Both the position numbers and the translations under genes were made by a program. DNA of 64,000 nt, from positions 20,919,839 to 20,983,838 of the forward strand of contig CM049316.1 in assembly GCA_026874595.1 (NCBI GenBank), read 5' to 3'. The notes beneath the pieces are model-generated. The model was not told the origin of the DNA. It saw nothing but the letters and a program-made list of their open reading frames with translations, and searched no databases. This DNA is from Sipunculus nudus (taxonomy: Eukaryota > Annelida > Sipuncula > Golfingiida > Sipunculidae). Below, in pieces: positions 9,963-60,519 of the stretch (position 1 is its first letter; every line of letters starts with the position of its first letter).

Positions 9963-9998
<36 letters not shown>
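9770..9998. repeat. Microsatellite cluster: (TA)n, (GA)n, G-run, (TA)n
   Basis: A TA run (about 9770-9802), a GA run followed by about twelve G (about 9818-9843), and two more TA runs (about 9955-9998) lie within 230 bases. Confidence 0.9.
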
Positions 9999-10047
9999 GA
10001 TGCATGAATGGCCATGCCTGTTCATAGTATATAGATAAGGAAGTACT

Positions 10048-10232: not shown

Positions 10233-10259
10233 CATACATACATACATACATACATACAT

Positions 10260-30495: not shown

Positions 30496-30500
30496 AAATG

Positions 30501-30574
<74 letters not shown>
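30501..30574. repeat. (CT)n followed by (TA)n microsatellite
   Basis: About 50 bases of CT repeat passing directly into about 24 bases of TA repeat. Confidence 0.95.
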
Positions 30575-32935: not shown

Positions 32936-34269
32936 GTTTGTCCGTCCGTCTGTTACTGGACAAACACACAACAAGGGCAACCCCCAAAACACCCTCTCAT
33001 ACTAAGTGGTTATTATTTGCCACTTCCATTCGCAAAAATTGTCAGGATATAAGTAAAGTTATTTAATGGATCAGAGCATCATGTGAAGGATTACTTATTT
33101 ACACTGGTTTCCATGACACACACGCCTAATATTCCAGATCTCTTCCATAATTATTCACAAGACCTTTTTAAAAGTTTAAAACATTTAATTTAGAACAGGT
33201 TTAACAAATGGTGTGATCGCATCAAACATGAACTTATGCTAGCTAAAATTCCTATCCCTAGAAAATTTTCATCCAGTTTACCCACACAAATCCTCTAATA
33301 AACCCCAAATTCCCTAATATCTTAATGTTACCATCATTCCGGAATTCCTGATAAATTCCCTACAGTCAAAGTTTTATGAAGGAACTGGCTAATCTATAGT
33401 GACCAATCTATGAAGCTATCCCATTCCAAGTATGGCTGAGTTAATATACAATGTCAATGATATAACATTTGATTTAAATCCTTCCTGAAGATCAGTCATC
33501 ATGACAGAAAATTTGTTTAAGACACAAGCCATTAGACACAGTTAACTGTTATCAGATGTACTGGATCATTACCAGTTATATCAAAGTTACGTAGTTTTCC
33601 ACAAATTATTTACAGTTCTCATATACAAGAGGTTATAAACATTCATTTTTAACAGTACCATTAGGTTATATGAAAACCGTTCAAATATCTCCGTAGTGCA
33701 AGAGTACGCACTCGCGACAACAGGGGCTAGACAATGGCTGGTAAACATTCCAGAAATTTCGGATGCTGTTGCTCAAGGTATGATGTGAAAGTAAAGTAAA
33801 TGTAAACGTGTTCTCTAGCACTCTTTCGGCAAGTTAACTGAGGTCATAGATTTTTATGTGTTTGACCATTCATGGCGCAACAATTATTAACGGTTGGCAC
33901 CGGCTTATTTTTCATTGTTTAATTGAGTGGCCGCAGGCCATGTTTTGCCTTACAGAGAACCAGTTTCTGTGACGCAGTGAATCAACGTGAATACCTCATG
34001 TTTTGATATATGGTAACTGGAAGATTTTATTTGAAGTTAAAGGAAGAGAAATATCAACTTAAGATTCGAATTGAAGATATATCATACTTCCGTTTAAAAT
34101 AAACTCTAAGAAAACCATATACAATGGCGTTATTGATGACATGTGTTTGATCTTAGCACAAGCAACACCCCAATCTGTATTTTGCCGTATGAACATTTAA
34201 AACCTTATCTATTTAGAACCAAATAACAAGCGAAAAAAATTAATACAAATGACAACAAAATGAACACAA
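32936..34269. other. No recognised gene; one short coding-like segment
   Basis: At 33692-33781 a short frame reads VVQEYALATTGARQWLVNIP and EISDAVAQ, followed by GGTATGA, a plausible splice donor. This could be a lone exon or chance. The rest is AT-rich without features. Confidence 0.3.
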
Positions 34270-34821
34270 AATTTCAACAAGTACATTGCTTATCAGGGCT
34301 TACGGTTGATTAATGTGATGTCAAAATTAAATTTATCAACAGGCATAGGTGCAGACGATATAATATCCTTCTTAGGAGCCTCAGCATTTAAAGTTCTTAC
34401 ACAGATCGTTCGAGACGATATCTCCGTTCATTTTGATACATTCTAGTGCATTTTATGTGGGAATATTTTCATTCCATTAAACATTGCTTATATTCCACGG
34501 CCCATAACTATAATGTCGCCTCTCTTGGAGGCGATAAAGCAGTCTCACGATTTTACTTAGTTACCTGCTTTATTATATTCACATAAACTTTTCGAATTCT
34601 ATTAGTTAAATTACTGATCATGTAATCAAAGGTTTTGTATGAATTTAAAGGCATGTTGGTATGCATTTTCGATACCCAGAAAGCACGGATATAGTTTTGT
34701 ACCTTCTGACATGTGTATATATTGTTGTCAAAAACCCTGTTTTGTTGAAAAAGGATGGGAAATCATCTACGGGGCTAACCTGTTTAGAATTGATGTTATT
34801 CTGCTTCAGAAGAACGGAAAT

Positions 34822-34825
<4 letters not shown>

Positions 34826-34868
<43 letters not shown>
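34826..34868. repeat. (GA)n microsatellite, unit 1 A half
   Basis: About 42 bases of GA. Equivalent tracts sit in the same place in units 2-4 (39156-39196, 43108-43156, 47086-47128), with AAAG interruptions there. Confidence 0.95.
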
Positions 34869-34872
<4 letters not shown>

Positions 34873-36215
34873 CATGTGGTCTAGCTGGTTGATCATATGT
34901 GTACATTTGTGTATATGAAGATGTTGTTACTACCCTTACATCACTTAACTGGATCTGTGAAACAAAGCAAAATACATGGAATAGTGCTATATGAAACTCT
35001 GACAGTTCAGGGACGTGGGCACCCTAACCAAAATTGGAGGCCCGGTATTCGATGCCCACACAGTGAGAACTGAATTTTCTGAGTATTCATTATTTATATA
35101 TGTATGTGCAGGAGTACATATAGAGTCGTAAAGAGGAAGTTTCTCCTGGGTAAGATGATGTGTATCAGCTAAACCTGTTGCCATGTCGACTGCACACTTC
35201 TCTTTTTCATATACAGCAATCTTTATGTATGGTATATTATTCGTATTACTCTTATTTCAAAATTGTTCAAGGGGCATGTATGCATGTTTTCACGATTCTG
35301 CTTGCCTTTCCATTCGGCATTCTGAATTGCTTCATTATTGCTATGGATCTGTAGACAACAAAATAATAAAAAAAAATACATTCAGTAACCGTGTCCCTAA
35401 TTGTAGGCCGTGTTTCATTTTATAACAAACACACAGACGGACACACACAGATAATGCATTATAAGTATATAAATATGTATGCGTCGCAATCCCAAATGAC
35501 ATGAGGGACACTGTAATATTTATACCTATATAAACGGGACCTACGTATATAGCACATTGCTCAAGGTCATAAAAACGTTACTTTGCAACAAACAGTGATT
35601 AGCGATAAAATATAATAACCATTTTAAACAAGTGGATAAAGTCGATGCTTGAACACGTATGCTAATCACGACTTACGGTTGATTCGGTCTAATGTCAAAA
35701 TTATACTGATCAACAAAGGTGCTGACGGTATAATATGGCTATAAGGAACCTGAACATTTATTATCCAACGCATTTCTTTCCAAACGCTTTCAGCTAAGAC
35801 CTAACTGTTTCAATGAAGGAAAAAAGCAATTTTATCCTTTAAACTGATTGAATTTTATTAGTACATTTACTGTAGTTGTGATCAGGGGTTTTGTAAGTTT
35901 TTAAAACCATGTTGATATGTATTTTCCGTGTTCAGTATCTGCAACTATCGGCGATACAGGAAACGTGTGTGTTGGATGAGATCATTGTGTAACCCCGTGT
36001 CGGTCATCCTTGTCACGGCAGACCTGAGACAATTCGATAAATATGTTGCCTTTGTGATCCAGGGAGTAATTAATCTTTAATTCACTGTATATGCCCATCA
36101 TTGGTAGAAAAGCACTTGTTTTTCACTTGAGAGTTACATGGTTTCATCAATGAGCTGGTCGGGTTTTGGTATACGTTTCAATTCTTGACCAGTTACAGAA
36201 CCAAGATCTGATTAT

Positions 36216-36219
<4 letters not shown>

Positions 36220-36273
<54 letters not shown>
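36220..36273. repeat. (GA)n microsatellite, unit 1 B half
   Basis: About 54 bases of GA. Equivalent tracts lie at 40257-40286, 44216-44263 and 48194-48250, varying in length between units. Confidence 0.95.
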
Positions 36274-36278
<5 letters not shown>

Positions 36279-38352
36279 AAGATTGAAACTTCGTGTAAAT
36301 AGTAATGTTATACACTGGGCCTTGATGATTACTGAGACGTGCTCCTTTAGAGTGTAAAAATATACAGATAATTTGGAGAATCTCAATCCTGGCGCCAGGA
36401 CACCTGGGCTTGATTTTTAACCCACGTGTATTTACAGGCGACTGCCTAACACTCTACTTTATTATCAGGATGATGCTTACAGCACAAACAGGAAGATTTA
36501 AACTAAAACAACTCGAACACAGTAGAAAAACCGCAGATCATGATTTTATATCACAGCTAGGAGGGTATTTTTTTTTTCTCTCGGTTCGTTGGTCGGTCTG
36601 TCTGTTAGCAACTTTACGCAATAATGTATTTATGATGGCATTTTGTGGAAGGTCAGGATAACACCCAATGATTGATCCATTGAATTTTAATATAAATCAG
36701 GATTATCATAATTTGTTTTCATAATGTCCGCGGTGAAGCATATATGGATGAACCAAAGTATTTGAGACATAACACGACAGTACAACATATGGGATCTTGA
36801 TTTGGGGATTAAAGGCATTTTTACCTAAAATATAGTCGCTTACATATTCTACGTATATTTTATTGACTTTTACAATGAATAATCAACTATGGCAATTTAT
36901 ACATGCATTTGCCGAACAGGCTGCCGATGTTACATTGTTTTATTATTATTATTATTTTATTATATATTTTCGAATTTTAATATAAAATATAACATATTAG
37001 AATAATAAATTCTGGGCTTGTTTGGTTTCTAATGTCCACATACATTTATCCATATTGTTGACTGGAGAACGTTCGTTTAGATACCGAAATCATAAGGGCG
37101 TTAAAAAATGAAACCATGCAGCTGGTTGATGTGTTATGATATTTCTACTCATGTTATAAAATGTATGTTTAATTAGTATTATGCCTAATGTTATATTGTC
37201 GGAGAGAATTTTTCTCAGTGCAAATATACAAGGTATAATGCAATGTATATCCGAAGTATAATCATAGGTGGGTCATTCTTAAATCCCCCTGTGTAGATAC
37301 AAAACGCTTAGTCACAAGTCAGTATAAATCCCTTCTATTTAAAGTCCAATTTAAGTTTAGACAAGAGGATACATGAGCGGTCATATTGCGGTAAGTTGTA
37401 AAAAGTTTTGTTGCTCATATTCTGATTATTTTATCTTCATATCTAATTCCACGGTCGGCGATCTTTTCCCTATGGGGTGATGGGCGTTGAAGCGAAATAG
37501 GAATCGTAGTAGTATATCAATAATTGACCCAAGAGTGGGGACACGGGTGTGAATCCATGTTCACAATCATAAGCATTAGAAGGTACATATGCATACACAC
37601 ATTCAATTAGTAAATCTTCAAAATCACATCAAAAGTAAAATGATGACTGGATACCAGATCTGCACTAGAGGAGTGGTCTTAAACGTGTAAGTGAGCAGGA
37701 TTATCAAGTGTAACATGGGCTGCTTGGTTTGCAGGAGTTCATTCTCTTCTAAAATCGACCTAATCCAAATGATAAGCCTTCAATTGACGATTACAAGTGC
37801 CTGGCAGGAACCCTTGCTCTTATTTGGGAAATGTCAATCAAACCTGCCTTTCTTATTATGTGGGACGTTTGGTTTTAGCCTTGACAGGGTGCGGTATATC
37901 AGTCGTGTAGAGTCACTCTAAGGACTTTGTAGTCTACTTCCTTTTCAGAAGCGATCATAAGTTAAATTTAAAGGGACTTAATCCAAATGTAAACCACAAT
38001 GCTGTCAAGTGACACTAATGACATTATCTCCGAGACTGTTATTCAAGCACTTCTGAAGTCCATCATACACTGCTGCCTAGTTATGTGGGACGTCCTGTCA
38101 TAGCCTCCAGTGTGCGAAGGATGATGGCCATTTCACCCGTTCACATCATCTCGAACTCGAAAGAAAGCAAACAGTTCATCTGTGTTTTTGTGAACCTGAG
38201 CCATTTAAAAATGACACAGCTCACTGCGAATAATATTCCATTATTTCAGGGAACCGCCAGAAATGGTAAGTCTTTAGTCCAAATATTAAAAAAAAAACCC
38301 AGAATAAAAGTATTAAACAGATGGTATACCGGATGCTCAAATAAGTGAATTT

Positions 38353-41300
38353 CTTATCAGGACTTGCGGTTTATTCGGTCTGGTGTAAAAATAAAGTATA
38401 AACAAGTATAGGCGCTGACAATATAATATGCCTGATGGGAACTTGAGCATTTGCCATTCTTACCCAGGTTTTACAAACCATTTTTTTCTTATTTATCTTG
38501 AATTTTTTATAAAAAGTTTCAGACCTTAACTAATACTGAATGTTGAAATCTGTCAATTAATGATTGAATGAATAGAATTTTATTGATATACATAATATGT
38601 ACAAGGAAAAACCCTTGCAAAATCACACAAAGAATAATATTTATTAATTTTATCACAGTTCATTCTAGTGCCAATTCTAAGGCATTTTCGTTCCATTAAA
38701 CACTGTTTATATTCTATGGCCCAAAACAGCCCCTCATGGAGGCTATAAAGCAGTCCCACGAATGCTCTAAGTGACCTACCTTAGGATATTCACATAAACA
38801 GGTCGATTTTGAACAGTAAAAAAAGTCTGTAGTGATAAGAGGTTTAAAGCCATGATGATATGTATCTCCCTGTGTCCATTTTCTCTTCCTATTTGCATAA
38901 CACAGAACGTTTACCTCGGTCGGTTAAGTTCCTTTGCTACTGCAAACCTGAAAACATAAAATAATCAAGTTGCCTTGGTGATCTAGGGAAAAATGAAACC
39001 TTACGTCACTGTATATGCATATTATTGGCAGAGAAGCACGTGTTTTTCTTTTTCGAGTTACCGAGTTTCAAGAACATTCTGGTTGGGTTTGGTACACGTA
39101 TCAATACAATTATTTCAGTGTACATTGTTCCAGTAAATATGTATATATTAACAGAGGAGAGAGAGAGAGAGAGAAAGAGAGAAAGAGAGAAAGAGAGGCA
39201 CATGTGGTCTAGATGGTTGATTATATGTGTACATTTGTGTATATGGAGACGTTGTTACGACCTTTACGTCACTGGATCTGTGAAACAAAGCAAAATACAT
39301 AGAATAGTGCTATATAAAACTCTGACAGTTCAGGCACCCTAACCAAAACTGGAGGCCCGGTATTCGATGCCCACACAGTGAGAACTGAATTTTCTGAATA
39401 TTCATTATTTATATATGTATGTGCAGGAGTACATTTAGAGTCGGAAAGAGGAAGTTTCTCCTGGATAAGATGATGCGCATCAGCTAATCTTGTTGCCATG
39501 GTGACTGCAAACTTTTCTTCTTCAAATACAGCAATCTTTATGTGTCGTATATTATTCGTATTACTCTTATATGAAAATTGCCCAAGGGGCATGTATGCAT
39601 GTTTTCACGATTCTGCTTGCCTTTCCGTTCAGCATTATGAATTGCTTCATTATTGCTATGGATCTGTAGACAACAAAATAATAAAAAAATACATTCAGTA
39701 ACCATGCCCTTAATTGTAGGCCGTGTTTCATTTGATAACAAACATACACAGAAGGACACACACAGATAATGCATTATAAGTATATAAATATGTATGCGTC
39801 GCAATCCCAAATGACACTGAGGGACACTGTAAAATATATACACATTTAAACGGGACCTACGTATATAGCACTGTTATCCTTTAAACTGGTTGAATTTAAT
39901 TAGTAAATTAACTGCCGTTGTGATCAGGGGTTTTGTAAGTTTTTAAAACCATGTTGATATGTCTGTTCCATGTGCAGTATCTGCAACTATCGGCGATAGG
40001 TAACGTGTGTTGGATGAGATCACTGCGTAACCCCGTGTCGATCATCCTTTTCACTGCAGACCTCAGACAATTCGATAATTATGATGCCTTTGTTATCCGG
40101 GGAATATTTAAACTTTACTTCACTGTATATGCCCATCATTGGTAGAGAAACACCTGTGTTTCACTTGGGGGATACTTGGTTTCATTAGTTACCTGGTCGG
40201 GTTTTGGTATACGTTTCAATTCTTGACCAGTTACAGAACCAAGATCTGATTATTTCAGAGAGAGAGAAAGAGAGAGAGAGAGAGAAGGAAGATTGAAACT
40301 TCGTGTAAATAGTAATGTTATACACTGGGCCTTGATGATTACTGAGACGTGCTCCTTTAGAGTGTAAAAAAATACAGGTTATTTGGAGAATTTCAATCCT
40401 GGCGCCAGGACACCTGGGCTTGATTTTTAACCCACGTGTATTTACAGGCGACTGCCTAACACTCTACTTTACTATCAGGATGATGCTTACAGCACAAACA
40501 GGAAGATTTAAACTAAAACAACTGGAATACAGTAGAAAAACCGCAGATCATGATTTTATATCACAGCCAGGAGGTTATCTTTTTTTCTCTTGGTTCGTTG
40601 GTCGGTCTGTCTGTTAGCAACTTTACGCAATAATGTATTTATGATGGCATTTTGTGGAAGGTCAGGATATACGTTGGATGAACCAAAGTATTTGAGACAT
40701 AACACGACAGTACAACATATGAGATCTTGATTTGGGGATTAAAGGCATTTTTACCTAAAATATAGTCGCATACATATATTCTACGTATATTTTATTGACT
40801 TTTACAATGAATAATCAACTATGGCAATTTATACATGCATTAGCCGAACAGGCTGCCGATGTTACATTGTTTTATTATTATTATTATTTTATTATATATT
40901 TTCAAATTTTAATATAAAATATAACATATTGGAATAATAAATTCTGGGCTTGTTTGGTTTCTAATGTCCACATACATTTATCCATATTGTTGATAAGGTT
41001 TCCACGTGATTGATACGACTGGAGAACGTTCGTTTAGATACCGAAATCATAAGGGCGTTAAAAATTGAAACCATGCAGCTGGTTGATGTGTTATGATATT
41101 TCTACTCATGTTATAAAATGTATGTTTAATTAGTATTATGCCTAATGTTATATTGTCGGAGAGAGTTTTTCTCAGTGCAAATATACAAGGTATAATGCAA
41201 TGTATATCCGAAGTATAATCATAGGTGGGTCATTCTTAAATCCCCCTGTGTAGATACAAAACGCTTAGTCACAAGTCAGTATAAATCCTCTCTATTTAAA

Positions 41301-42302
41301 GTCCAATTTAAGTTTAGACAAGAGGATACATGAGCGGTCATATTGCGGTAAGTTGTAAAAAGTTTTGTTGCTCATATTCTGATTATTTTATCTTCATATC
41401 TAATTCCACGGTCGGCGATCTTTTCCCTATGGGGTGATGGGCGTTGAAGCGAAATAGGAATCGTAGTAGTATATCAATAATTGACCCAAGAGTGGGGACA
41501 CGGGCGTGAATCCATGTTCACAATCATAAGCATTAGAAGGTACATACACACATTCAATTAGTAAATCTTCAAAATCACATCAAAAGTAAAATGATGACTG
41601 GATACCAGATCTGCACTAGAGGAGTGGTCTTAAACGTGTAAGTGAGCAGGATTATCAGGTGTAACATGGGCTGCTTGGTTTGCAGGAGTTCATTCTCTTC
41701 TAAAATCGACCTAATCCAAATGATAAGCCTTCAATTGACGATTACAAGTGCCTGGCAGGAACCCTTGCTCTTATTTGGGAAATGTCAATCAAACCTGCCT
41801 TCCTTATTATGTGGGACGTTTGGTTTTAGCCTTGACAGGGTGCGGTATATCAGTCGTGTAGAGTCACTCTAAGGACTTTGTAGTCTACTTCCTTTTCAGA
41901 AGCGATCATAAGTTAAATTTAAAGGGACTTAATCCAAATGTAAACCACAATGCTGTCAAGTGACACTAATGACATTATCTCCGAGACTGTTATTCAAGCA
42001 CTTCTGAAGTCCATCATACACTGCTGCCTAGTTATGTGGGACGTCCTGTCATAGCCTCCAGTGTGCGAAGGATGAAGGCCATTTCACCTGTTCACATCAT
42101 CTCGAACTCGAAAGAAAGCAAACAGTTCATCTGTGTTTTTGTGAACCTGAGCCATTTAAAAATGACACAGCTCACTGCGAATAATATTCCATTATTTCAG
42201 GGAACCGCCAGAAATGGTAAGTCTTTAGTCCAAATATTAAAAAAAAAAACAGAATAAAAGTATTAAACAAATGGTATACCCGATGCTCAAATAAGTGAAT
42301 TT
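38353..42302 (+). repeat. Array unit 2
   Basis: Nearly identical to unit 3. It lacks the 276-base segment present in unit 1 (35556-35831) that carries the B-half start landmark. Like unit 3 it also lacks about 80 bases found in units 1 and 4 (unit 1 36661-36741). Confidence 0.88.
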
Positions 42303-43109
42303 CTTATCAGGACTTGCGGTTTATTCGGTCTGGTGTAAAAATAAAGTATAAACAAGTATAGGCGCTGACAATATAATAGGCCTGATGGGAACTTGAGCAT
42401 TTGCCATTCTTACCCAGGTTTTACAAACCATTTTTTTTCTTATTTATCTTGAATTTTTTATAAAAAGTTTCAGACCTAAACTAATACTGAATGTTGAAAT
42501 CTGTCAAATAATGATTGAATGAATAGAATTTTATTGATATACATAATATGTACAAGGAAAAACCTTTGCAAAATCACACAAAGAATAATATTTATTAATT
42601 TTATCACAGTTCATTCTAGTGCCAATTCTAAGGCATTTTCGTTCCATTAAAACACTGTTTATATTCTATGGCCCAAAACAGCCTCTCATGGAGGCTATAA
42701 AGCAGTCCCACGAATGCTCTAAGTGACCTGCCTTAGGATATTCACATAAACAGGTCGATTTTGAACAGTAAAAAAACGTCTGTAGTGATAAGAGGTTTAA
42801 AGCCATGATGATATGTATCTCCCTGTGTCCATTTTCTCTTCCTATTTGCATAACACAGAACGTTTACCTCGGTCGGTTAAGTTCCTTTGCTACTGCAAAC
42901 CTGAAAACATAAAATAATCAAGTTGCCTTGGTGATCTAGGGAAAAATGAAACCTTACGTCACTGTATATGCATATTATTGGCAGAGAAGCACGTGTTTTT
43001 CTTTTTCGAGTTACCGAGTTTCAAGAACATTCTGGTTGGGTTTGGTACACGTATCAATACAATTATTTCAGTGTACATTGTTCCAGTAAATATGTATATA
43101 TTAACAGAG

Positions 43110-43143
<34 letters not shown>

Positions 43144-44212
43144 GAGAGAAAGAGAAGCACATGTGGTCTAGATGGTTGATTATATGTGTACATTTGTGTA
43201 TATGGAGACGTTGTTACGACCCTTACGTCACTGGATCTGTGAAACAAAGCAAAATACATAGAATAGTGCTATATAAAACTCTGACAGTTCAGGCACCCTA
43301 ACCAAAACTGGAGGCCCGGTATTCGATGCCCACACAGTGAGAACTGAATTTTCTGAGTATTCATTATTTATATATGTATGTGCAGGAGTACATTTAGAGT
43401 CGGAAAGAGGAAGTTTCTCCTGGATAAGATGATGCTCATCAGCTAATCTTGTTGCCATGGTGACTGCAAACTTTTCTTCTTCAAATACAGCAATCTTTAT
43501 GTGTCGTATATTATTCGTATTACTCTTATATGAAAATTGCCCAAGGGGCATGTATGCATGTTTTCACGATTCTCCTTGCCTTTCCGTTCGGCATTCTGAA
43601 TTGCTTCATTATTGCTATGGATCTGTAGACAACAAAATAATAAAAAAATACATTCAGTAACCATGCCCTTAATTGTAGGCCGTGTTTCATTTGATAACAA
43701 ACATACACAGAAGGACACACACAGATAATGCATTATAAGTATATAAATATGTATGCGTCGCAATCCCAAATGACACTGAGGGACACTGTAAAATATATAC
43801 ACATTTAAACGGGACCTACGTATATAGCACTGTTACCCTTTAAACTGGTTGAATTTAATTAGTAAATTAACTGCCGTTGTGATCAGGGGTTTTGTAAGTT
43901 TTTAAAACCATGTTGATATGTCTGTTCCATGTGCAGTATCTGCAACTATCGGCGATAGGTAACGTGTGTTGGATGAGATCATTGCGTAACCCCGTGTCGA
44001 TCATCCTTTTCACTGCAGACCTCAGACAATTCGATAATTATGATGCCTTTGTTATCCGGGGAATATTTAAACTTTAATTCACTGTATATGCCCATCATTG
44101 GTAGAGAAACACCTGTGTTTCACTTGGGGGATACTTGGTTTCATTAGTTACCTGGTCGGGTTTTGGTATACGTTTCAATTCTTGACCAGTTACAGAACCA
44201 AGATCTGATTAT

Positions 44213-44265
<53 letters not shown>

Positions 44266-46282
44266 AAGATTGAAACTTCGTGTAAATAGTAATGTTATAC
44301 ACTGGGCCTTGATGATTACTGAGACGTGCTCCTTTAGAGTGTAAAAATATACAGGTTATTTGGAGAATCTCAATCCTGGCGCCAGGACACCTGGGCTTGA
44401 TTTTTAACCCACGTGTATTTACAGGCGACTGCCTTACACTCTACTTTACTATCAGGATGATGCTTACAGCACAAACAGGAAGATTTAAACTAAAACAACT
44501 GGAATACAGTAGAAAAACCGCAGATCATGATTTTATATCACAGCCAGGAGGTTATCTTTTTTTCTCTTGGTTCGTTGGTCGGTCTGTCTGTTAGCAACTT
44601 TACACAATAATGTATTTATGATGGCATTTTGTGGAAGGTCAGGATATACGTTGGATGAACCAAAGTATTTGAGACATAACACGACAGTACAACATATGAG
44701 ATCTTGATTTGGGGATTAAAGGCATTTTTACCTAAAATATAGTCGCATACATATATTCTACGTATATTTTATTGACTTTTACAATGAATAATCAACTATG
44801 GCAATTTATACATGCATTAGCCGAACAGGCTGCCGATGTTACATTGTTTTATTATTATTATTATTTTATTATATATTTTCAAATTTTAATATAAAATATA
44901 ACATATTAGAATAATAAATTCTGGGCTTGTTTGGTTTCTAATGTCCACATACTTTTATCCATATTGTTGATAAGGTTTCCACGTGATTGATACGACTGGA
45001 GAACGTTCGTTTAGATACCGAAATCATAAGGGCGTTAAAAATTGAAACCATGCAGCTGGTTGATGTGTTATGATATTTCTACTCATGTTATAAAATGTAT
45101 GTTTAATTAGTATTATGCCTAATGTTATATTGTCGGAGAGAATTTTTCTCAGTGCAAATATACAAGGTATAATGCAATGTATATCCGAAGTATAATCATA
45201 GGTGGGTCATTCTTAAATCCCCTGTGTAGATACAAAACGCTTAGTCACAAGTCAGTATAAATCCTCTCTATTTAAAGTCCAATTTAAGTTTAGACAAGAG
45301 GATACATGAGCGGTCATATTGCGGTAAGTTGTAAAAAGTTTTGTTGCTCATATTCTGATTATTTTATCTTCATATCTGATTCCACGGTCGGCGATCTTTT
45401 CCCTATGGGGTGATGGGCGTTGAAGTGAAATAGGAATCGTAGTAGTATATCAAAAATTGACCCAAGAGTGGGGACACGGGCGTGAATCCATGTTCACAAT
45501 CATAAGCATTAGAAGGTACATATGCATACACACATTCAATTAGTAAATCTTCAAAATCACATCAAAAGTAAAATGATGACTGGATACCAGATCTGCACTA
45601 GAGGAGTGGTCTTAAACGTGTAAGTGAGCAGGATTATCAGGTGTAACATGGGCTGCTTGGTTTGCAGGAGTTCATTCTCTTCTAAAATCGACCTAATCCA
45701 AATGATAAGCCTTCAATTGACGATTACAAGTGCCTGGCAGGAACCCTTGCTCTTATTTGGGAAATGTCAATCAAACCTGCCTTCCTTATTATGTGGGACG
45801 TTTGGTTTTAGCCTTGACAGGGTGCGGTATATCAGTCGTGTAGAGTCACTCTAAGGACTTTGTAGTCTACTTCCTTTTCAGAAGCGATCATAAGTTAAAT
45901 TTAAAGGGACTTAATCCAAATGTAAACCACAATGCTGTCAAGTGACACTAATGACATTATCTCCGAGACTGTTATTCAAGCACTTCTGAAGTCCATCATA
46001 CACTGCTGCCTAGTTATGTGGGACGTCCTGTCATAGCCTCCAGTGTGCGAAGGATGAAGGCCATTTCACCTGTTCACATCATCTCGAACTCGAAAGAAAG
46101 CAAACAGTTCATCTGTGTTTTTGTGAACCTGAGCCATTTAAAAATGACACAGCTCACTGCGAATAATATTCCATTATTTCAGGGAACCGCCAGAAATGGT
46201 AAGTCTTTAGTCCAAATATTAAAAAAAAACAGAATAAAAGTATTAAACAAATGGTATACCCGATGCTCAAATAAGTGAATTT
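42303..46282 (+). repeat. Array unit 3
   Basis: Differs from unit 2 by scattered single-base changes and by GA tract lengths. It shares both deletions with unit 2, so the two are the youngest pair. Confidence 0.88.
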
Positions 46283-48189
46283 CTTATCAGGACTTGCGGT
46301 TTATTCGGTCTGGTGTAAAAATAAAGTATAAACAAGTATAGGCGCTGACAATATAATATGCCTGATGGGAACTTGAGCATTTGCCATTCTTACCCAGGTT
46401 TTACAAACCATTTTTTTCTTATTTATCTTGAATTTTTTATAAAAAGTTTCAGACCTAAACTAATACTGAATGTTGAAATCTGTCAATTAATGATTGAATG
46501 AATAGAATTTTATTGATATACATAATATGTACAAGGAAAAACCTTTGCAAAATCACACAAAGAATAATATTTATTAATTTTATCACAGTTCATTCTAGTG
46601 CCAATTCTAAGGCATTTTCGTTCCATTAAAACACTGTTTATATTCTATGGCCCAAAACAGCCTCTCATGGAGGCTATAAAGCAGTCCCACGAATGCTCTA
46701 AGTGACCTGCCTTAGGATATTCACAAAAACAGGTCGATTTTGAACAGTAAAAAAACGTCTGTAGTGAAAAGAGGTTTAAAGCCATGATGATATGTATCTC
46801 CCTGTGTCCATTTTCTCTTCCTATTTGCATAACACAGAACGTTTACCTCGGTCGGTTAAGTTCCTTTGCTACTGCAAACCTGAAAACATAAAATAATCAA
46901 GTTGCCTTGGTGATCTAGGGAAAAATGAAACCTTACGTCACTGTATATGCATATTATTGGCAGAGAAGCACGTGTTTTTCTTTTTCGAGTTACCTAGTTT
47001 CAAGAACATTCTGGTTGGGTTTGGTACACGTATCAATACAATTATTTCAGTGTACATTGTTCCAGTAAATATGTATATATTAACAGAGGAGAGAGAGAGA
47101 GAGAGAAAGAGAGAAAGAGAGAAAGAGAGGCACATGTGGTCTAGATGGTTGATTATATGTGTACATTTGTGTATATGGAGACGTTGTTACGACCCTTACG
47201 TCACTGGATCTGTGAAACAAAGCAAAATACATAGAATAGTGCTATATAAAACTCTGACAGTTCAGGCACCCTAACCAAAACTGGAGGCCCGGTATTCGAT
47301 GCCCACACAGTGAGAACTGAATTTTCTGAGTATTCATTATTTATATATGTATGTGCAGGAGTACATTTAGAGTCGGAAAGAGGAAGTTTCTCCTGGATAA
47401 GATGATGCGCATCAGCTAATCTTGTTGCCATGGTGACTGCTAACTTTTCTTCTTCAAATACAGCAATCTTTATGTGTCGTATATTATTCGTATTACTCTT
47501 ATATGAAAATTGCCCAAGGGGCATGTATGCATGTTTTCACGATTCTGCTTGCCTTTCCGTTCGGCATTATGAATTGCTTCATTATTGCTATGGATCTGTA
47601 GACAACAAAATAATAAAAAAATACATTCAGTAACCATGCCCTTAATTGTAGGCCGTGTTTCATTTGATAACAAACATACACAGAAGGACACACACAGATA
47701 ATGCATTATAAGTATATAAATATGTATGCGTCGCAATCCCAAATGACACTGAGGGACACTGTAAAATATATACACATTTAAACGGGACCTACGTATATAG
47801 CACTGTTATCCTTTAAACTGGTTGAATTTAATTAGTAAATTAACTGCCGTTGTGATCAGGGGTTTTGTAAGTTTTTAAAACCATGTTGATATGTCTGTTC
47901 CATGTGCAGTATCTGCAACTATCGGCGATATAGGTAACTTGTGTTTGATGAGATCATTGCGTAACCCCGTGTCGATCATCCTTTTCACTGCAGACCTCAG
48001 ACAATTCGATAATTATGATGCCTTTGTTATCCGGGGAGTATTTAAACCTTAATTCACTGTATATGCCCATCATTGGAAAGGAGAAACACCTGTGTTTCAC
48101 TTGGGGGATACTTGGTTTCATCAGTTATCTGGTCGGGTTTTGGTATACGTTTCAATTCTTGACCAGTTACAGAACCAAGATCTGATTAT

Positions 48190-48251
<62 letters not shown>

Positions 48252-50350
48252 GATTGAAACTTCGTGTAAATAGTAATGTTATACACTGGGCCTTGATGAT
48301 TACTGAGACGTGCTCCTTTAGGTTGTAAAAATATACAGATAATTTGGAGAATCTCAATCCTGGCGCCAGGACACCCGGGCTTGATTTTTAACCCACGTGT
48401 ATTTACAGGCGACTGCCTAACACTCTACTTTATTATCAGGATGATGCCTACAGCACAAACAGGAAGATTTAAACTAAAACAACTCGAACACAGTAGAAAA
48501 ACCGCAGATCATGATTTTATATCACAGCTAGGAGGTTATCTTTTTTTCTCTTGGTTCGTTGGTCTGTCTGTGTGTTAGCAATTTTACGCAATAATGTATT
48601 TATGATGGCATTTTGTGGAAGGTCAGGATAACACCCAATGATTGATCCAATGAATTTTAATATAAATCAGGATTATCATAATATGTTTTGACAATATCCG
48701 CGGGGTAGCAGATAACGGATGAACCAAAGTAATATAGACATAACACGACAGTACAACATATGGGATCTTGATTTGGGGATTAAAGGCATTTTTACCTAAA
48801 ATATAGTCGCATACATATATTCTACGTATATTTTATTGACTTTTACAATGAATAATCAACTATGGCAATTTATACATGCATTAGCCGCACAGGCTGCCGA
48901 TATTACATTGGTTTATTTTTATTATTATTTATTATATATTTTCGAATTTTAATATAAAATATAACAAATTAGAATAATAAATTGTGGGATTGTTTGGTAT
49001 CTAATGTCCACATATATTTATCCATATTGTTGATAAGGTTTCTTCGTGATTGATACGACTGGAGAACGTTCGTTTAGATACCGAAATCATAAGGGCGTTA
49101 AAAATTGAAACCATGCAGCTGGTTGATGTGTTATGATATTTCTACTCATGTTATAAAATGTATGTTTTATTGGTATTATGCCTAATGTTATATTGTCGGA
49201 GAGAGTTTTTCTCACTGCAAATATACAAGGTATAATGCAATGTATATCCGAAGTATAATCATAGGTGGGTCATTCTTAAATCCCCCTGTGTAGATACAAA
49301 ACGCTTAGTCACAAGTCAGTATAAATCCTCTCAATTTAAAGTCCAATTTAAGTTTAGACAAGAGGAATCATGAGCGGGCATATTGCGGTAAGTTGTAAAA
49401 GGTTTTGTTGCTCATATTCTGATTATTTTATCTTCATATCTAATTCCACGGTCGGCCATCTTTTCCCTATGGGGTGATGGGCGTTGAAGCGGAATAGGAA
49501 TCGTAGTAGTATATAAATAATTGACCCAAGAGTGGGGACTCAGGCGTGAATCCATATTCACAATCATAAGCATAAGAAGGTACATATGCATACACACATT
49601 CAATTAGTAAATCTTCAAAATCACATCAAAAGTAAAATGATGACTGGATACCAGATCTGCACTCGAGGAGGCGTCTTAAACGTGTAAGTGAGCAGGATTA
49701 TCAGGTGTAACATGGGCTGCTTGGTTTGCAGGAGTTCATTCTCTTCTAAAAGCGACCTAATCCAAATGTTAAGCCCTCAATTAACGATTACAAGTGCCTG
49801 GCAGGGACCCTTGCTCTTATTTGGGAAATGTCAATCAAACCTGCCTTCCTTATTATGTGTGACATTTGGTTTTAGCCTTGACAGGGTGCGGTATGTCAGT
49901 CGTGTAGATTCACTCTAAGGAATTTGTGGTCTACTTCCTTTTCAGAAGCGATCATAAGTTAAATTTAAAGGGACTTAATCTTAAATGTAAACCGCAACGC
50001 TGTCACGTGACACTAATGACAGTATCTCCGAGATTGTCATTCAAGCACTTCTGAAGTCCATCATACACTGCTGCCTAGTTATGTGGGACGTCCTGTCATA
50101 GCCTCCAGTGTGCGAAGGATGAAGGCCATTACACCCGTTCACATCATCTCGAACTCGAAAGAAAGCAAACAGTTTATCTCTGTTTTTGTGAACCTGAGCC
50201 ATTTAAAAATTACACAGCTCACTGCGAATAATATTCCATTATTGCAGGGAACCGCCAGGAAATGGTAACTCCTAAGTCCAAATATTTTACGAGAAAATAG
50301 AATAAAAGTATTAAACAAATAGCATACCCGATGCTCAAATAAGTATATTT
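46283..50350 (+). repeat. Array unit 4
   Basis: Shares the 276-base deletion with units 2-3 but keeps the 80-base segment (about 48631-48716) that they lost. Its 3' third is more diverged (for example at 49688-50350) than the same part of units 1-3. Confidence 0.88.
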
Positions 50351-51980
50351 CTTATCAGGACTTACGGTTTATTCGGTCTGATGTAAAAATAAAGTATAGT
50401 ATAAACAGGTATAGGCGCTGACGATATAATATGCCTGATGGGAACTTGAGCATTTAGCATTCTTACCCAGGTCTTACAAACCATTTTTTCTTATTTATCT
50501 TGAAATATGATGAAAAGTTTCAGACCTACACCAATACTGCATATTGCAATCTGTAAATTAATGATTGAATGAATAGAATTTTATTGTTATACATAAAATG
50601 AACAAGGAAAAACCTTGCAAAATTACACAAAGAGTAATATTTATTAATTTTATCACAGTTCATTTAAGTGCCAATTCTAAGGCATTTTCATTCCATTAAA
50701 ACACTATTTATATTCTATGGCCCATAACAGCCCCTCATGAAGCTATAAAGCTATAATTCGTCCCACGAATGTTCTAAGTGACCTACTTTAGGACATTCAC
50801 ATAATTTTGATTTTGAACAGTTAAATAACGTCTGTAGTGATAAGAGGTTAAGTCGGTTTTTAAAGCCATGTCCTATGTCCAGTTTCTCTTTCTATTTGCA
50901 TTACACAAACGTGTACCTCGGTTAAGGCCATTGCGAAGTGGCAAGTCGGTATTCCTTGTCACTGCAAACCTGCAAACACGAAATAATCATGTTGCCTTGG
51001 TGATCTGGGGAAAAAGTAAACCTTACGTCACTGTATATGCCTATTATTGGCAGAGAAGCACGAGTTTTGCGCTTTCGAGTTACCGGGTTTCAAGAATATT
51101 CTGGTTGGGTTTGGTACACGTATCAATACAATTATTTCAGTGTACAATGTGCCAGTAAAATAGGATTTATGTTATATTTTTACATGATATTTTGACAAAA
51201 CATGAACTTTCATTTAGAGTGTAAAAATATACAGGTTATTTGGAGGTGTCTGGAAGCCGAGTTCTGACGTTGGGAGACCCGGGCCCTTTAACTCGTCTGT
51301 GTATTCATGTGTACTCATAGGCGACAGCCTAGCACACACTTTCAATATGAGGATGATGCGCAAGCAGGAAGATCTGAATTAAACCGCAGGATATGATTTT
51401 ATATCACCACCAGGAAGATATTTTTTTTCCTCCTGGTTGTTAGTCAGTTTGTCTGTTGGTAACTTAACGCATTGATGTAGAATATTGATGATATTTTGTG
51501 GAGGATCAGAGCTATTGACTTTTAAGATTAATTTATGACAATATTTGATGACAAAATAAAATCCTTTGAAGTAGATTCCGCAGGGCAGCACGTACCAGAC
51601 GAACTAATGAAATGGAACCGTAACAGGGCAGCACAAACAATGAAAGCTTGATTCGAGGATTAAGTGATCTGCTTAATTTGTGCTTCCTAAAATATGGTGG
51701 TATTCATGTATCACACATATATTATTGAGTTTTGCAATTAATCATCTATGGCCATTTTATGCATGCATCACGCCGAACAGGTTCCAGGTATTACACTGTT
51801 TTCTGCACGTTTAATGTATCTTCAAATTTACATAATATAAAATAATATATAATAAAATAGACTAGTATATTTGTTTCCAACACCGATTGAAATAATAAAT
51901 TGAGGGAATAGTTGGTCTTATGAAATCTAACGTCCACGTACGTTTATCCATTTTCTTGATTAGGTTTCCAGAATGTGCCA
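50351..51980 (+). repeat. Array unit 5, undimerised and diverged
   Basis: Runs from an A-type left arm (50351 to about 51160) directly into a B-type right arm (TTTAGAGTGTAAAAATATAC at about 51213 onwards), without a GA tract or the intervening A/B segment. Similarity fades at about 51980 after TTGATTAGGTTTCCAGAATG. It may represent the ancestral monomer or a deletion derivative. Confidence 0.75.
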
Positions 51981-52321: not shown

Positions 52322-52905
52322 CTATGAAAGCTTATCTGAATAATTTATCTTTAGTTTTGATTTAAAAATTGGCACAGTTTGACTAGATCTGATGCCCAGC
52401 GTAAAAGCCTTCCATACCGAAGGTCCAGCTTCATAGAATGCTCTGTCACCACACGAGGTCCTGTAGGTCTTTTTCCGTGGTAACATGTAGCTGTCTGCTG
52501 ACCGTGAGGTTCTTGTACGTCTATATGGATGGATCATTTCTTTAAGATAGATGGGTGCTAGGTTATCTTGGTACTTTAAAATGAACAATAAAATTTTAAA
52601 GTTTATCCTCTGTGCAAAAGGGAGTCAGTGGAGATCATATACAATGGGTGAAATATGGTCATGTTTATGTGCTCTGGTGAAATTACTAGCAGCAGTATAT
52701 TGAATTCTCTGCAGCTTCGATATTAGTGTCTAGTAGATCATATAACAAAGAGTTTAGATGATCCAACCTTGATGTTATAAAGGCATGAATCAAGATTTTC
52801 GTTTTTTGGTCTATCCAGATACCTGCATATCCGACCAATATTTCTCACGGCAAGGTATGCCCCTCTACACAGAGAAGCCAAATCACTAAAGGCGCTACTT
52901 ATTAA
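52322..52905 (-). pseudogene. CR1/Jockey-like LINE reverse transcriptase, C-terminal remnant
   Basis: On the minus strand a reverse-transcriptase tail is readable in order: GAYLAVRNIGRICRYLDRP, HAFITSRLDHLNSLLYDLL, KLQRIQYTAASNFTRAHKHD, then HISPIVYDLH. It continues INFKILLFILKYQDNLAPIY, RTSRSADSYMLPRKK, GDRAFYEAGPSVWKAF and FKSKLKINY. This is the C-terminal thumb/connection region typical of CR1, L2 and Jockey-clade non-LTR elements. One frameshift (about 52708) and a TGA in place of the usual Trp of the LHWLP motif (about 52636) show it is dead. The catalytic RT core and endonuclease are absent (5'-truncated). Confidence 0.82.
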
Positions 52906-54420
52906 GCTGACAGAACTAATATCCTCTGTTTCTTCGAGATATCAAATTCACTATAGGCAATCCCAGAGGGCTCCATGACAGAGTTTGCAGAGTTTTCTCC
53001 CCACCGTTTTTCTTTAATTTTTATGTGTTCTCAGCTTGTTATTAACTAGCTTCACTACAAGCGCACACCTGTGCCAAATTAGAAGCCCGTTTTTATGTTT
53101 AAACTAATATTCAATAAAACTATAACTTACAATAATTTAAAAAACTGCGCTACTTATTAGACTGAGAGACTACTGTAGTGTGTAACTCACAAAAACGAGC
53201 TCCATGAAGGGTTTCTTTTCAAAATATATCACGGGTCTATACATATTCGCTGAGGGCTTCAAGACACTCCATCCACTGTCAATTTCTATCTATCGGAGGC
53301 CTCTCATTATAACACCGTACTTGTGATTTGTTCCTCTTGCCTCTTATTCTTCCTTTTTTTTCCGTTTCAATCCAAAAAAGAAAAGCGAAAATACATTTCG
53401 ATATGTGTCATATCTGGAGCTAAGCGTATATAAGTGTATAAAAAATGTTGTTTTGTATTTTTTATCAGTTCTACAACTACTGCTTAATTTTATGCCTTAG
53501 CATAATATAGTCAAACGTTTGAGGGGTTCAATATTTAATATTTATATTTTCATATTTAGGACATAATCTTTCAATCCTTTGCAACATGTTAATGTTAATA
53601 GTGAATATCATCTTTTAAATGTAATGCACGGGTTCAAATAATTGGTATTTTGAAGACTTATTATAAATTTTCCATGTATAGGAAGGTCTTGCCTCACTCA
53701 CAGAAAAGGTGATTGAGGGGTTTCCTCAGTGTTATAGTCCAGTAGAGTATAATAACAAAAAGTAATAAACTGTGAATAATTTACTAATCTAATTGCTGAT
53801 GAATTGCAAGAAATATGCAAATGGAAAATTAATCACGAATATATTGGAAGTGAAGTGGATAGCGAAATGTGGGGGGGGGGGGGGCACTGTTTTAGCAAGG
53901 ATACTAATGCATTAATAGCGGTAACGTTTTTTAATTCATAATTATTGTAAACCAAACATGGTTTCACAATAGATAACGAATACAATCCACCTCTGTGGAT
54001 GCTTGGGTGCTTGGATAGCCGATAACAGTTTATAAGATAAGCATTTGACAGGAGTTATACATACTGTTGGGATCACCTCGCCCTCGGTCCATTGACGATT
54101 CTCTCCAATTTCAAGGAACACTGGATGTTGTAAAGTGTATTTTAGACGTGCTACACACAATAAGCAGCACACAGGTGTATGTTGGTAAGGATCATTGACT
54201 TATTAGAACGCTACTGGTATTTAATATTCGTAGGGCAGGTCTACTCAGGCTTTATTTTGTAGTGTTAATATTCCATCTTGTAACAGTAATGAAGTTAAGA
54301 TCAAATATCATTTAGCTGATGGGACATACGATTTTTTTGCATAAGGCAAGGTTAGAGTAGTTTTGGCTTCGTTTTCACACAGGAAACTGTCATTGTCATT
54401 GCCGTTGTCAATACCTGTGC
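52906..54420. other. No recognised gene; upstream region of the intact TLR
   Basis: GCGCTACTTATTA(A/G)(A/G)CTGA occurs twice (about 52892 and 53149), a weak ~257-base direct repeat that begins inside the LINE remnant. A run of about 12 G lies near 53873-53884. The first non-coding exon and promoter of the TLR may be here but cannot be located from sequence alone. Confidence 0.4.
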
Positions 54421-54522
54421 AGTTTTATGTTACAACTTTTAATTACATGTTTTCTCCTAACTGTCCAACAGTGGCTTTTCACCTCAAACTTAACAATTTT
54501 ATACGACAAATTTCCTAGCCTC

Positions 54523-54543
54523 ATTTTTTTTTATTTTTCACAG
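54523..54543 (+). promoter_or_regulatory. Candidate 5'UTR splice acceptor of the intact TLR
   Basis: A long T-rich tract ends in TTTTTCACAG at 54543, a strong animal 3' splice site. The apparent open frame runs back through it to an ATG at 54427, but residues upstream translate the pyrimidine tract (FFYFSQ), so that ATG is probably intronic. The real start is most likely the ATG at 54667. Confidence 0.55.
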
Positions 54544-54666
54544 ATAAGAAACCCCCTGAGTAAAGAAAATTTTGGCAACGGAAAGGAATACCCACGAGGA
54601 GGCCACACGAACTGCAAAAGGTATACCGATATTTCTACAGTCACTTCGGTTGCTCACCAAAACAAG

Positions 54667-57069
54667 ATGAGGCAAACATTATCTCCCATACATGTCATTC
54701 TTGTTGCAAATATAGTCGCTTATTCTGGAGCTCAGTCCTATAGTTGCCCTCCGTGTAACTGTACACAAACGGCTGGATCCACGAACGTAAACTGCAGCAA
54801 CCTAGGACTGACTGAGATACCTGATCTCTGTCAACATAACGTGTCAGAATTTCTGCTCTCCGGAAACAAAATATCCCGGATAAAGAACAATTCCTTTATC
54901 AAGTGTGTTAATTTGAACAAATTGCAGCTACAGAATTCAGAAATCCAGCTTTTGGATTCGGGAGCATTTGAGGGACTCTCACAGTTACAAGTCCTTGACT
55001 TGAGACAAAATCTACTTGGATCAGATCAACTACAACTAAATGAGTCATCTGTTATGACACCTCTTAAGAACTTAGAGCACCTGTATGTTTCCAGCAATAA
55101 ATGGATAGGGGGCAATGACTATCAGACTATGAAATTTTTTATGCGGTCTCTCCCCAAAACAAAACTTGAAGTTTTGGCACTTGGATTTATAACACCGGTC
55201 CATGACTGTGCAAAAACTGATTTAACATCAGATATTCTCGTATCAATAAAAACTCCCTCACTCAGGAAACTTTATCTTCAGGGAAATTTCATATGCTATA
55301 TCCGCACAATGATCAGTGCATTTACACCAAATTTAGAAGAACTAAATCTCATGATGAACCACCTTTTAGGTTATTCATTTTTATTAGGATTGAAACATCT
55401 GAGATATCTAAATATAAACTATCAAACCTTGCTTTCAAACCCTAGGCAGAGCGCATATAACTTCCACGGCATTAAACCAATATCAGGTACGACGCAGACT
55501 TCTGAGCCACAGATTTGCGATATGGACTATGAAACTTTTCTCAACACTGAGATTCAAGCTTCCGAACAAGCTTATGACTTAGGTCACATTCTATTTAAGG
55601 ACAACAGTAGTGACAGTCCGATCCCATTTTACTGGCCTTCCAATTTAACTATTGTTGATGCTAACGAAGTTGGGCAAATGATGTATATAATAGGAGGTAA
55701 ATTTTTAATATGGAATCATGAAAATATAGGTGAAACAACCATACATTTTGGTAAAAATCGACTGTTTCAGTTTGAGGGAATTGTTGAAATGTGCCATCAA
55801 GCGTCTGCGCTACATATGGATTTTCATGGTAACGAGCTCGCTGTAGTGTCTAAACTTGCCTTAGGTAAAAATGTAATATCGTCACTTGTCTCGTTTAACT
55901 TATCATTCAACAATCTAGGTGATTTGTTATCGAAAGGAGGAGGGCCATTGCCATACTTGTACAATCTAAAATATTTGGACTTAGAATACAACAATATCTT
56001 TCATATATCGACATATGTTATTAATGGCTCTACCCACCCTCATTTAAAGGTCCTAATATTAAAAAATAACAATTTGCTTGATATCCCACCCAGTGTTACT
56101 GGTTTGAAAACTCTGGTCCATCTTGATATCTCTATGAATAGAATTGTTGATCTAAAAACAAAGCGTATAGCCCGTTTAATAAATCTAGTTCGTCTTGATA
56201 TTTCTATGAATAGAATATTATATCTAAACAGAAAAGTTTTATCCGAGTTAAGTTTCATAATCAAAAGGAATGTGACCGCGTTCCAATTAGACTTGAGTGG
56301 CAACCCTATAGAATGTTCATGTAAATCGTTATTTTTTCTTAGATGGATGTACCGATTTCAAAATAATCTGGTAAACCTAGGTAAAATATCATGTAATCTG
56401 CAAGAGCGCAGGGTTCTATTATCACTGTTGCAGAAAGTCATTCTGCCTAACCTCGAAAGACTTTGTCTCAGTAGAGAGTGGTTGTACGCGATGTCCGGTA
56501 TCCTGATCACTCTTCTGGTTTGTTTGACCGTATCAGTTATAACGTATCGCCACAGATGGGACATAAAGTATTTCTGCCTTCGACTTAAAATCCGTCGAGA
56601 GGTGTATGCTGAAATATTTGAAGAGAGAGGAGCTTTTTATTACGATGCATTTGTTACCTACAGCCATTGCGATTCTTCTTGGGTTGAGAATTTCCTTATC
56701 CCAAATCTTGAAGAAGGTGACTCCCCGTTTCGTCTATGTGTTCATCAGAGAGATTTTGAAGTAGGGTCATCAATCGAGGAGAGTATTCTGCGCAGTATAT
56801 CGAAGAGTCGTAAAACGATAATTGTTTTGTCAAAAAACTTTATTCGTAGTAACTGGTGTAAATTTGAAATGCATATGACTCGGGTCCACATGATGGAGAG
56901 GGGAGTTGATCAAGTTATTATCGTTATGCTTGAAGAGGTTCCAACTGCTGATTTGCCACACACCCTGGTGGGTATTATGAGACGACATACATATATTGTT
57001 TGGCCAGGAGAAAACATGATTGATAATGTGCCTGCATTTTGGTCACGTCTGCGGTCGGCGCTGCATTAG
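54667..57069 (+). CDS. Toll-like receptor, intact (800 residues)
   Basis: A single-pass pattern-recognition receptor expected to sit in the plasma or endosomal membrane and recruit TIR adaptors. The ATG at 54667 gives a signal peptide (MRQTLSPIHVILVANIVAYS, residues 1-24), an LRRNT (about 27-60: CPPCNC...C...LCQ) and an LRR solenoid to about 545. The solenoid holds a roughly 120-residue non-LRR insert (about 290-400) that contains the WPSNLTIVDANEVG segment also seen in the 2.8 kb paralogue (WPKNLAAVNARHLG). One LRRCT follows (546-600: NPIECSC...C...C), then a TM helix (about 604-627) and a TIR domain (658-800). TIR boxes are YDAFVTYS, RDFEVGSSIEESI and FW (791-792). A single LRRCT makes it a vertebrate-type (sccTLR) layout. 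The BB-loop has V where many TLRs have P, as in Drosophila Toll. A tandem pair of near-identical LRRs lies at 56113-56256. An upstream ATG at 54427 would add 80 residues but lies before a likely splice acceptor. Ligand unknown. Confidence 0.93.
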   Translation: MRQTLSPIHVILVANIVAYSGAQSYSCPPCNCTQTAGSTNVNCSNLGLTEIPDLCQHNVSEFLLSGNKISRIKNNSFIKCVNLNKLQLQNSEIQLLDSGAFEGLSQLQVLDLRQNLLGSDQLQLNESSVMTPLKNLEHLYVSSNKWIGGNDYQTMKFFMRSLPKTKLEVLALGFITPVHDCAKTDLTSDILVSIKTPSLRKLYLQGNFICYIRTMISAFTPNLEELNLMMNHLLGYSFLLGLKHLRYLNINYQTLLSNPRQSAYNFHGIKPISGTTQTSEPQICDMDYETFLNTEIQASEQAYDLGHILFKDNSSDSPIPFYWPSNLTIVDANEVGQMMYIIGGKFLIWNHENIGETTIHFGKNRLFQFEGIVEMCHQASALHMDFHGNELAVVSKLALGKNVISSLVSFNLSFNNLGDLLSKGGGPLPYLYNLKYLDLEYNNIFHISTYVINGSTHPHLKVLILKNNNLLDIPPSVTGLKTLVHLDISMNRIVDLKTKRIARLINLVRLDISMNRILYLNRKVLSELSFIIKRNVTAFQLDLSGNPIECSCKSLFFLRWMYRFQNNLVNLGKISCNLQERRVLLSLLQKVILPNLERLCLSREWLYAMSGILITLLVCLTVSVITYRHRWDIKYFCLRLKIRREVYAEIFEERGAFYYDAFVTYSHCDSSWVENFLIPNLEEGDSPFRLCVHQRDFEVGSSIEESILRSISKSRKTIIVLSKNFIRSNWCKFEMHMTRVHMMERGVDQVIIVMLEEVPTADLPHTLVGIMRRHTYIVWPGENMIDNVPAFWSRLRSALH

Positions 57070-60505: not shown

Positions 60506-60519
60506 CTTTTGAGTTGGGC

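Follow-up and report, generated by a model that had tools for sequence, protein, structure and literature searches.

Higher-order repeats of the alpha-satellite type consist of diverged blocks of 171 bases nested in larger near-identical units, which are present in hundreds of copies. By the time such higher-order satellites come to notice, they have usually passed through many rounds of exchange that erased their origin. In this study, a tandem array of about 4 kb units was analyzed in a cluster of Toll-like receptor (TLR) genes of Sipunculus nudus. It is located in a 64,000-nucleotide stretch of contig CM049316.1 (C11:20919839-20983838; the window) of a 1.43 Gb assembly of 153 contigs. Gene-free megasatellites are described in the human genome, where they carry transposon remnants and are presumed to have grown by unequal crossing-over (Warburton et al. 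2008, PMC2588610). Among the tandem expansions of immune genes described for bivalves are those of TNF and C1q, with one mention of a Toll-like receptor (PMC8905726). The array looks like a small gene-free megasatellite early in its growth, a type of structure that is already familiar. Most probably, it is the decayed end of a TLR gene, lying in a segmentally duplicated TLR cluster, that was amplified by unequal crossing-over and has no function.

The array shares the nesting of diverged blocks within larger near-identical units with the alpha-satellite type, but its blocks are 0.5-3 kb instead of 171 bases and its copies are four, not hundreds. With the human gene-free megasatellites (PMC2588610), it has in common the kb-long unit, the tandem arrangement, the absence of genes, the transposon remnants, and the presumed unequal crossing-over. 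It differs from them in having only about four copies, in containing a decayed gene end besides a relic resembling a short interspersed element (SINE), and in an exchange chimera that is still legible. The bivalve expansions (PMC8905726) likewise combine tandem and segmental duplication of immune genes, whereas here a dead remnant and not a gene was amplified. No paper joining TLR, tandem or segmental duplication, and molluscs was found in the literature searched, which is not a claim that none is in print.

As in megasatellites and macrosatellites, the units are longer than 2 kb and lie head to tail, the array exceeds 10 kb, and it occupies one or few loci, as judged from the two unit parts that were searched genome-wide (see below). 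A classical satellite has a high copy number and long arrays; here there are four units, and no other array was found for those two parts. An earlier note on this DNA had proposed a young satellite. This is half right: the array is indeed young, tandem, and non-coding, but it has about four copies, and the two parts searched revealed no other array.

The head-to-tail array was seen directly in a self-comparison of the window, where whole-length matches with E = 0 exclude chance. The four units (U1-U4; Table 1), whose borders were phased on the first (AG)n tract of each, sum to 16.3 kb, and to about 17.7 kb with the diverged partial copies at the edges. The left edge copy is 66-70% identical to the unit with gaps counted (68-76% of aligned bases), and the right edge copy 66-67% (76-77%). 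The array begins at 34276 in the self-comparison, or at about 34200 under a looser scoring scheme. With the diverged copies, the array extends from 34276 to 51970; the limits of 34270-51980 and the period of about 4 kb in the earlier note are therefore correct. Its statement that units 2-4 are almost identical is correct for U2 and U3 over their whole length (0.46-1.23% different, depending on the region) but not for U4 beyond the first third. U4 is 98.5-98.8% identical to U2 and U3 in the first third; its difference from them rises to 4.5-4.9% in the middle and 6.6-6.7% in the last half. U1 shows the mirror image: it differs from U2 and U3 by 7.9-8.4% on the left, 2.6-2.9% in the middle, and 1.0-1.1% on the right. 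The difference between U1 and U4 is 3.7-8.3% by region. A piece of 274 bases (about 35556-35829) occurs in U1 and is absent from U2-U4, and 80 bases of U1 (about 36661-36740) are absent from U2 and U3. Special methylation was also considered: the CpG ratio of the array (0.71) lies inside the range of the window (0.61-1.07 per 4 kb) and gives no signal of it.

This reciprocal pattern can be resolved site by site. U1 and U4 differ at 260 sites, at which U2 follows U4 in its left part and U1 in its right part; a single switch explains 237 of these sites, leaving 22 exceptions and one site that matches neither. None of 10000 shuffles did as well. The mosaic pattern of U3 is the same. Outside the middle region, the chimera is about 1-1.5% from its parents. 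Therefore, U2 and U3 are chimeras, in line with the recent unequal exchange or gene conversion proposed earlier. A crossover that joined the left part of a U4 ancestor to the right part of a U1 ancestor would yield just this middle unit while adding one unit to the array, and the difference of 0.46-1.23% between U2 and U3 suggests that the chimera was then copied again. The interval of the junction contains the second (AG)n tract, which may have taken part in the exchange.

Two points weigh against this account. U2 and U3 have 15 private substitutions, and nine of these, together with the 80-base deletion, cluster to the right of the junction (alignment columns 1548-1973; about 36370-36790 in U1), which a simple crossover does not predict. 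Within these columns, the difference of U2 and U3 from the two parents is 2.6-4.9%; the cluster suggests error-prone (mutagenic) repair or a lost third donor. In addition, the role of the (AG)n tract depends on a single junction, and the probability that such an interval includes a tract by chance was estimated by hand as about 1 in 8.

Alternatively, the mosaic might stem from gene conversion, with U4 and U1 as donors to middle units that already existed; this would change only one step of the proposed history. It would agree with patches of other similarity and with the cluster of private sites near the junction. It would also agree with the left edge of the array. There, the block 34281-35359, which includes most of the left diverged copy, has 96.9% identity to a distant site, D3 (20306602-20307690), and sharp breaks at both ends, so that exchange between distant sites has probably touched the array too. 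However, in U2 one switch accounts for most of the informative sites, and its orientation is the one expected of an expanding crossover. Conversion as the source of the mosaic is therefore considered unlikely.

The unit itself is nested. Counted from 44652, it contains two related blocks, A1 and A2, with an identity of 62.7% when gaps are counted (553 columns, E = 1.4e-33) and of 70.7% over 491 aligned bases. In the right edge copy, which runs from the A block to position 3663 of the unit, the inserted part made of Y and A2 is missing. Therefore, the extra 1.1 kb (Y and the second A block) is read as an addition to an older monomer, which by subtraction would be about 2.9 kb long; the right edge copy reads as this older form. 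The 274-base piece of U1 matches unit positions 1573-1762 at 70%. It is thus monomer-like, as would follow if the monomer that held the second A block had once been longer. The 4 kb unit therefore combines one long and one truncated monomer into a higher-order repeat: old blocks inside it are 63-71% identical, and U2 and U3 are about 99% identical to each other. Part Y was also compared with the start of the monomer, of which it might be a remote copy; the score was 30.4 bits, and the best of 20 crude shuffles gave 28.5.

Relatives of the unit were searched in the whole assembly with two queries. For a 1 kb query (38300-39300), 40 of the 341 candidates were scored, so that its matches are a lower bound; for the unit body (44662-46860), all 19 candidates were scored and gave 28 matches. 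The 1 kb query matched at least the four units, the start of U1, and three sites on C11 at 20.307, 20.467, and 20.625 Mb, and its matches on other contigs fell on its (AG)n part. Twenty-six of the matches of the unit body were on C11, and the other two were short, on C1 and C16. For these two parts, the relatives of the unit are confined to one chromosome, besides (AG)n and the two short matches, and no second array was found.

The three sites on C11 (D1-D3) are 0.3-0.65 Mb from the array, and their sequence is 76-81% identical to the unit body. They lie in blocks that are about 99% identical over the approximately 20 kb fetched for each and are spaced by 157-160 kb; D1 and D2, about 157 kb apart, share 25 kb at 99.2%. 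Each holds a single copy, in which the body with relics of TIR-coding sequence, an A-like block, the (AG)n start, and Y follow in the same order as in the array. They differ from it in being single copy and in the divergence of the body. Five further sites at C11 15.97-16.17 Mb match the unit body at 65-83% in the opposite orientation, 5 Mb away and spaced by tens of kb. They are perhaps a second decayed TLR cluster.

The origin of part of the unit was recognized by comparison with the rest of the window. The strongest match of a profile of the four units was a simple repeat, an (AG)n run at 30499-30551, and was set aside. The profile further matched a tRNA-bearing element (10017-10250) and, in antisense, the TIR-coding part of a TLR gene (2776-5198). 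When simple repeats were masked, a single-sequence query gave 15.8 and 12.3 bits, and the best of 60 shuffled queries gave 0.0 bits. Conversely, a DNA profile of the TIR-coding parts of three TLR genes of the window detected an antisense fragment at the corresponding place in every unit (Table 1). The reversed array gave no matches to this profile; five weaker rows of the search (E = 0.29-8.7) were not significant. The match in U4 exceeds the maximum of 2.1 bits in 200 shuffles, and the D3 region scored 16.2 bits against a maximum of 9.7 in 200. In pairwise DNA tests, two of the three window TLRs were supported (3 and 2 of 200 shuffles reached the score). Of the 11 TIR-coding TLR loci in the 238 kb neighborhood (C11:20460000-20697999), some of which are copies of each other, the unit profile matched three in antisense to TIR, and none in the reversed sequence.

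The related sites give the same indication. D1 and D3 each have two tandem antisense TIR relics in the body, one of them with a weak protein match (36 amino acids, 47%, E = 0.009), and D2 has one at the cut-off used. D3 matched three proteins of the family with E = 0.004-0.007, as compared with 0.095 for reversed D3. At one of the far sites, where 3 kb were read, a TIR motif with stops was found (E = 4e-5 for DNA and 0.088 for protein). All three diverged groups of loci (array, D sites, and far sites) thus indicate one gene, and agree on the part of it and on the strand. The TLR sequence in the unit is a relic only and not a gene; its homology to TIR is seen at the DNA level, with consistent strand and position. 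This relic supports the suggestion in the earlier note that the array could be a decayed gene multiplied in tandem.

Several results tell against this origin. At the protein level, the best match in a frame-tolerant search of one unit did not stand out from shuffled sequences (seven of 100 scored as high), and tblastn of the array gave a best E of 0.17, compared with 0.29 for its reverse. In the array, a full-length TLR profile of ten genes scored no more than -1.9 bits (E = 0.11), with the match at the right place; in D3 it scored 6.9 bits, against 0.5 bits when reversed. In the pairwise tests, the third window TLR was unsupported (47 of 200 shuffles) and pointed elsewhere. One of the three TLR matches in the neighborhood is a 98% copy of a window TLR, and a further match of like strength, at C11:20614553-20614679 (unit-profile positions 2568-2690, 11.8 bits, E = 6.6e-5), is explained by no TLR or known relic. 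The three groups of relics are mutually related and so are not independent origins. Finally, the recognizable relic covers about 160 of 4000 bases; neither tblastn nor the full-length profile gave a convincing match to the leucine-rich repeat (LRR) and transmembrane parts of TLR outside TIR.

From these data, the following history may be proposed. The source would be a TLR gene read on the minus strand, of which the decayed 3' end is left together with neighboring DNA that includes the SINE-like relic and (AG)n tracts. As single copies, this sequence is present in segmental duplications at three sites on one chromosome. At the site of the array, an old tandem of diverged monomers would have formed, and one full and one truncated monomer would have become locked into the 4 kb higher-order unit. 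Duplication of this unit would have founded two lineages, U1 and U4. A single unequal crossover in or close to the (AG)n tract would then have produced the chimeric middle unit, which was presumably copied once more to give U2 and U3. The order of these steps would follow the degree of divergence: the old blocks are 63-77% identical, the difference between U1 and U4 is intermediate, and that of the chimera from its parents is the smallest. The array would have arisen as a side effect of recombination in a cluster of duplicating immune genes, and no function would be needed.

In part Y, every unit contains a tRNA- or SINE-like relic, which matches the element at 9996-10226 with 24.5, 16.8, 20.7, and 20.7 bits in U1-U4, respectively (maximum for the reversed window, 8.8). 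This element has an Rfam tRNA match of 35.9 bits at 10067-10139 that was not called by ARAGORN, which found no tRNA in the window. The elements at 9996-10226 and 2234-2450 are related to each other and have a tRNA-like core with shared flanks on either side, a SINE-like layout. The strong relatives of the relic in the 238 kb neighborhood sit in a duplicate of the left half of the window itself, so that they give no evidence of a dispersed SINE family.

A protein-coding array was considered and ruled out. A six-frame Pfam search of one unit gave only DUF3915, a low-complexity (RE)n match from translated (AG)n. No conserved frame was seen in seven alignments of diverged or paralogous parts: indels were multiples of three in 10 of 84 cases, and mismatches were nearly even by phase, the most uneven counts being 29/31/17 and 58/40/46.

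A functional non-coding RNA or a regulatory (insulator- or enhancer-like) array kept by selection would be compatible with head-to-tail units of which two are near-identical, 3 kb from an open TLR gene, and with a decayed tRNA-like element in every unit. On the other hand, no Rfam family reached its cut-off in the array (one permissive match gave 22.4 bits against a cut-off of 100), which leaves the non-coding RNA locus of the earlier note unsupported. Moreover, the three sister sites hold the sequence unamplified. Selection for such a function seems very unlikely.

An assembly artefact, in which two haplotypes or a mis-joined repeat were placed in tandem, has an even slimmer chance. The small difference between U2 and U3 is within reach of heterozygous alleles, and the copy number of these two units could still be wrong. 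In contrast, the diverged copies at both edges and the divergence of U1 from U4 indicate an old tandem. The assembly is highly contiguous, which, being that of the window itself, is no independent check. A wholly artefactual array is unlikely in view of the mosaic differences between units and the presence of old partial copies on either side.

Transposons are known to form tandem arrays of kb length, and the SINE-like relic in each unit might recall one, but a mobile element (such as a tandem Helitron or another non-autonomous transposon) whose copies inserted side by side or multiplied in tandem is extremely improbable, since no transposon protein was found in one unit, as had been noted earlier, the relatives of the two searched parts (40 of 341 and 19 of 19 candidates scored) are, besides short and (AG)n matches, limited to a single contig, and the D copies are embedded in larger duplicated blocks and are not separate insertions. 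One exact 30-base pattern had no match in a virus collection.

Table 1. Features of the tandem array and its units (window coordinates)
Feature	Position	Strand	Remarks
U1	34826-39152	+	4327 bases; self-comparison
U2	39153-43112	+	3960 bases; chimera, U4-like left, U1-like right
U3	43113-47084	+	3972 bases; chimera of U2 type
U4	47085-51159	+	4075 bases; self-comparison
Left diverged partial copy	34200-34825 (aligned about 34200-34671)	+	end part of old monomer, unit positions about 1543-2150
Right diverged partial copy	51210-51970	+	one 286-bit match to unit profile
First (AG)n tract (AG1), U1-U4	34826-34867, 39153-39197, 43106-43155, 47085-47129		in order
Second (AG)n tract (AG2)	36219-36277 (U1), 40257-40285 (U2), 44216-44262 (U3), 48193-48248 (U4)		
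Chimera junction interval	36152-36351 (U1), 40190-40361 (U2), 48126-48322 (U4)		contains AG2 tract 36219-36277
Decayed TIR-coding TLR fragment, U1	38080-38237	-	17.9 bits, TIR DNA profile of three window TLRs
Decayed TIR-coding TLR fragment, U2	42031-42188	-	17.7 bits, same profile
Decayed TIR-coding TLR fragment, U3	46013-46170	-	17.7 bits, same profile
Decayed TIR-coding TLR fragment, U4	50078-50235	-	22.0 bits, same profile
tRNA/SINE-like relic in part Y	34919-35112 (U1), 39250-39426 (U2), 43207-43386 (U3), 47180-47359 (U4)	+	
A1 block	46622-47129 (unit 1971-2478)	+	old internal duplicate of A2; one copy shown
A2 block	47702-48240 (unit 3051-3589)		partner of A1

The array lies, as the earlier note had placed it, between a TLR pseudogene (about 25573-27259), whose matches are broken over several frames, and an open TLR gene (54361-57069). 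The latter has 902 residues from stop to stop and contains LRR and TIR. The surrounding region is in active duplication: most of the window from 1 to 32407 is copied at C11:20543577-20575368 in blocks that are 97.5-98.6% identical. This copy is without the array, but it stops about 1.9 kb short of the position of the array, so that it is not an empty site. The TLR at 2776-5198 on the minus strand consists of two long frames that overlap at 3849-3873, which means one frame break, and otherwise has LRRs and a TIR domain.

On the right side of the window, the region 62265-63956 is likely a remnant of a non-LTR (long terminal repeat) retrotransposon, since 62265-62882 matches the zf-RVT domain (E = 6.3e-10); Pfam gave no match for the long frame next to it. 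The minus strand of 52380-52800 is taken by eye to resemble the 3' end of a reverse-transcriptase frame of a long interspersed element (LINE), and a Pfam search of its three minus-strand frames gave nothing at E = 0.01. A direct repeat of about 480 bases (59281-59757 and 60519-60983) is 77.5% identical.

The general surprise of the array is modest because structures of this kind are familiar. Its locality shows the extent of recent duplication around the TLR genes. Here one can still read the relatives that remain single copy, an earlier form of the monomer, and the chimera left by one exchange, and part of the source, the decayed TLR end, could be identified. It might even be supposed that the array is a live recombination hot spot, in which breaks at (AG)n and mispairing drive both the array and the duplication and turnover of the surrounding TLR genes, though this seems quite unlikely. 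If it were so, the single-copy relics, the old tandem, the crossover chimera, and the re-copied chimera would together document how a dead immune gene gave rise to a higher-order satellite.

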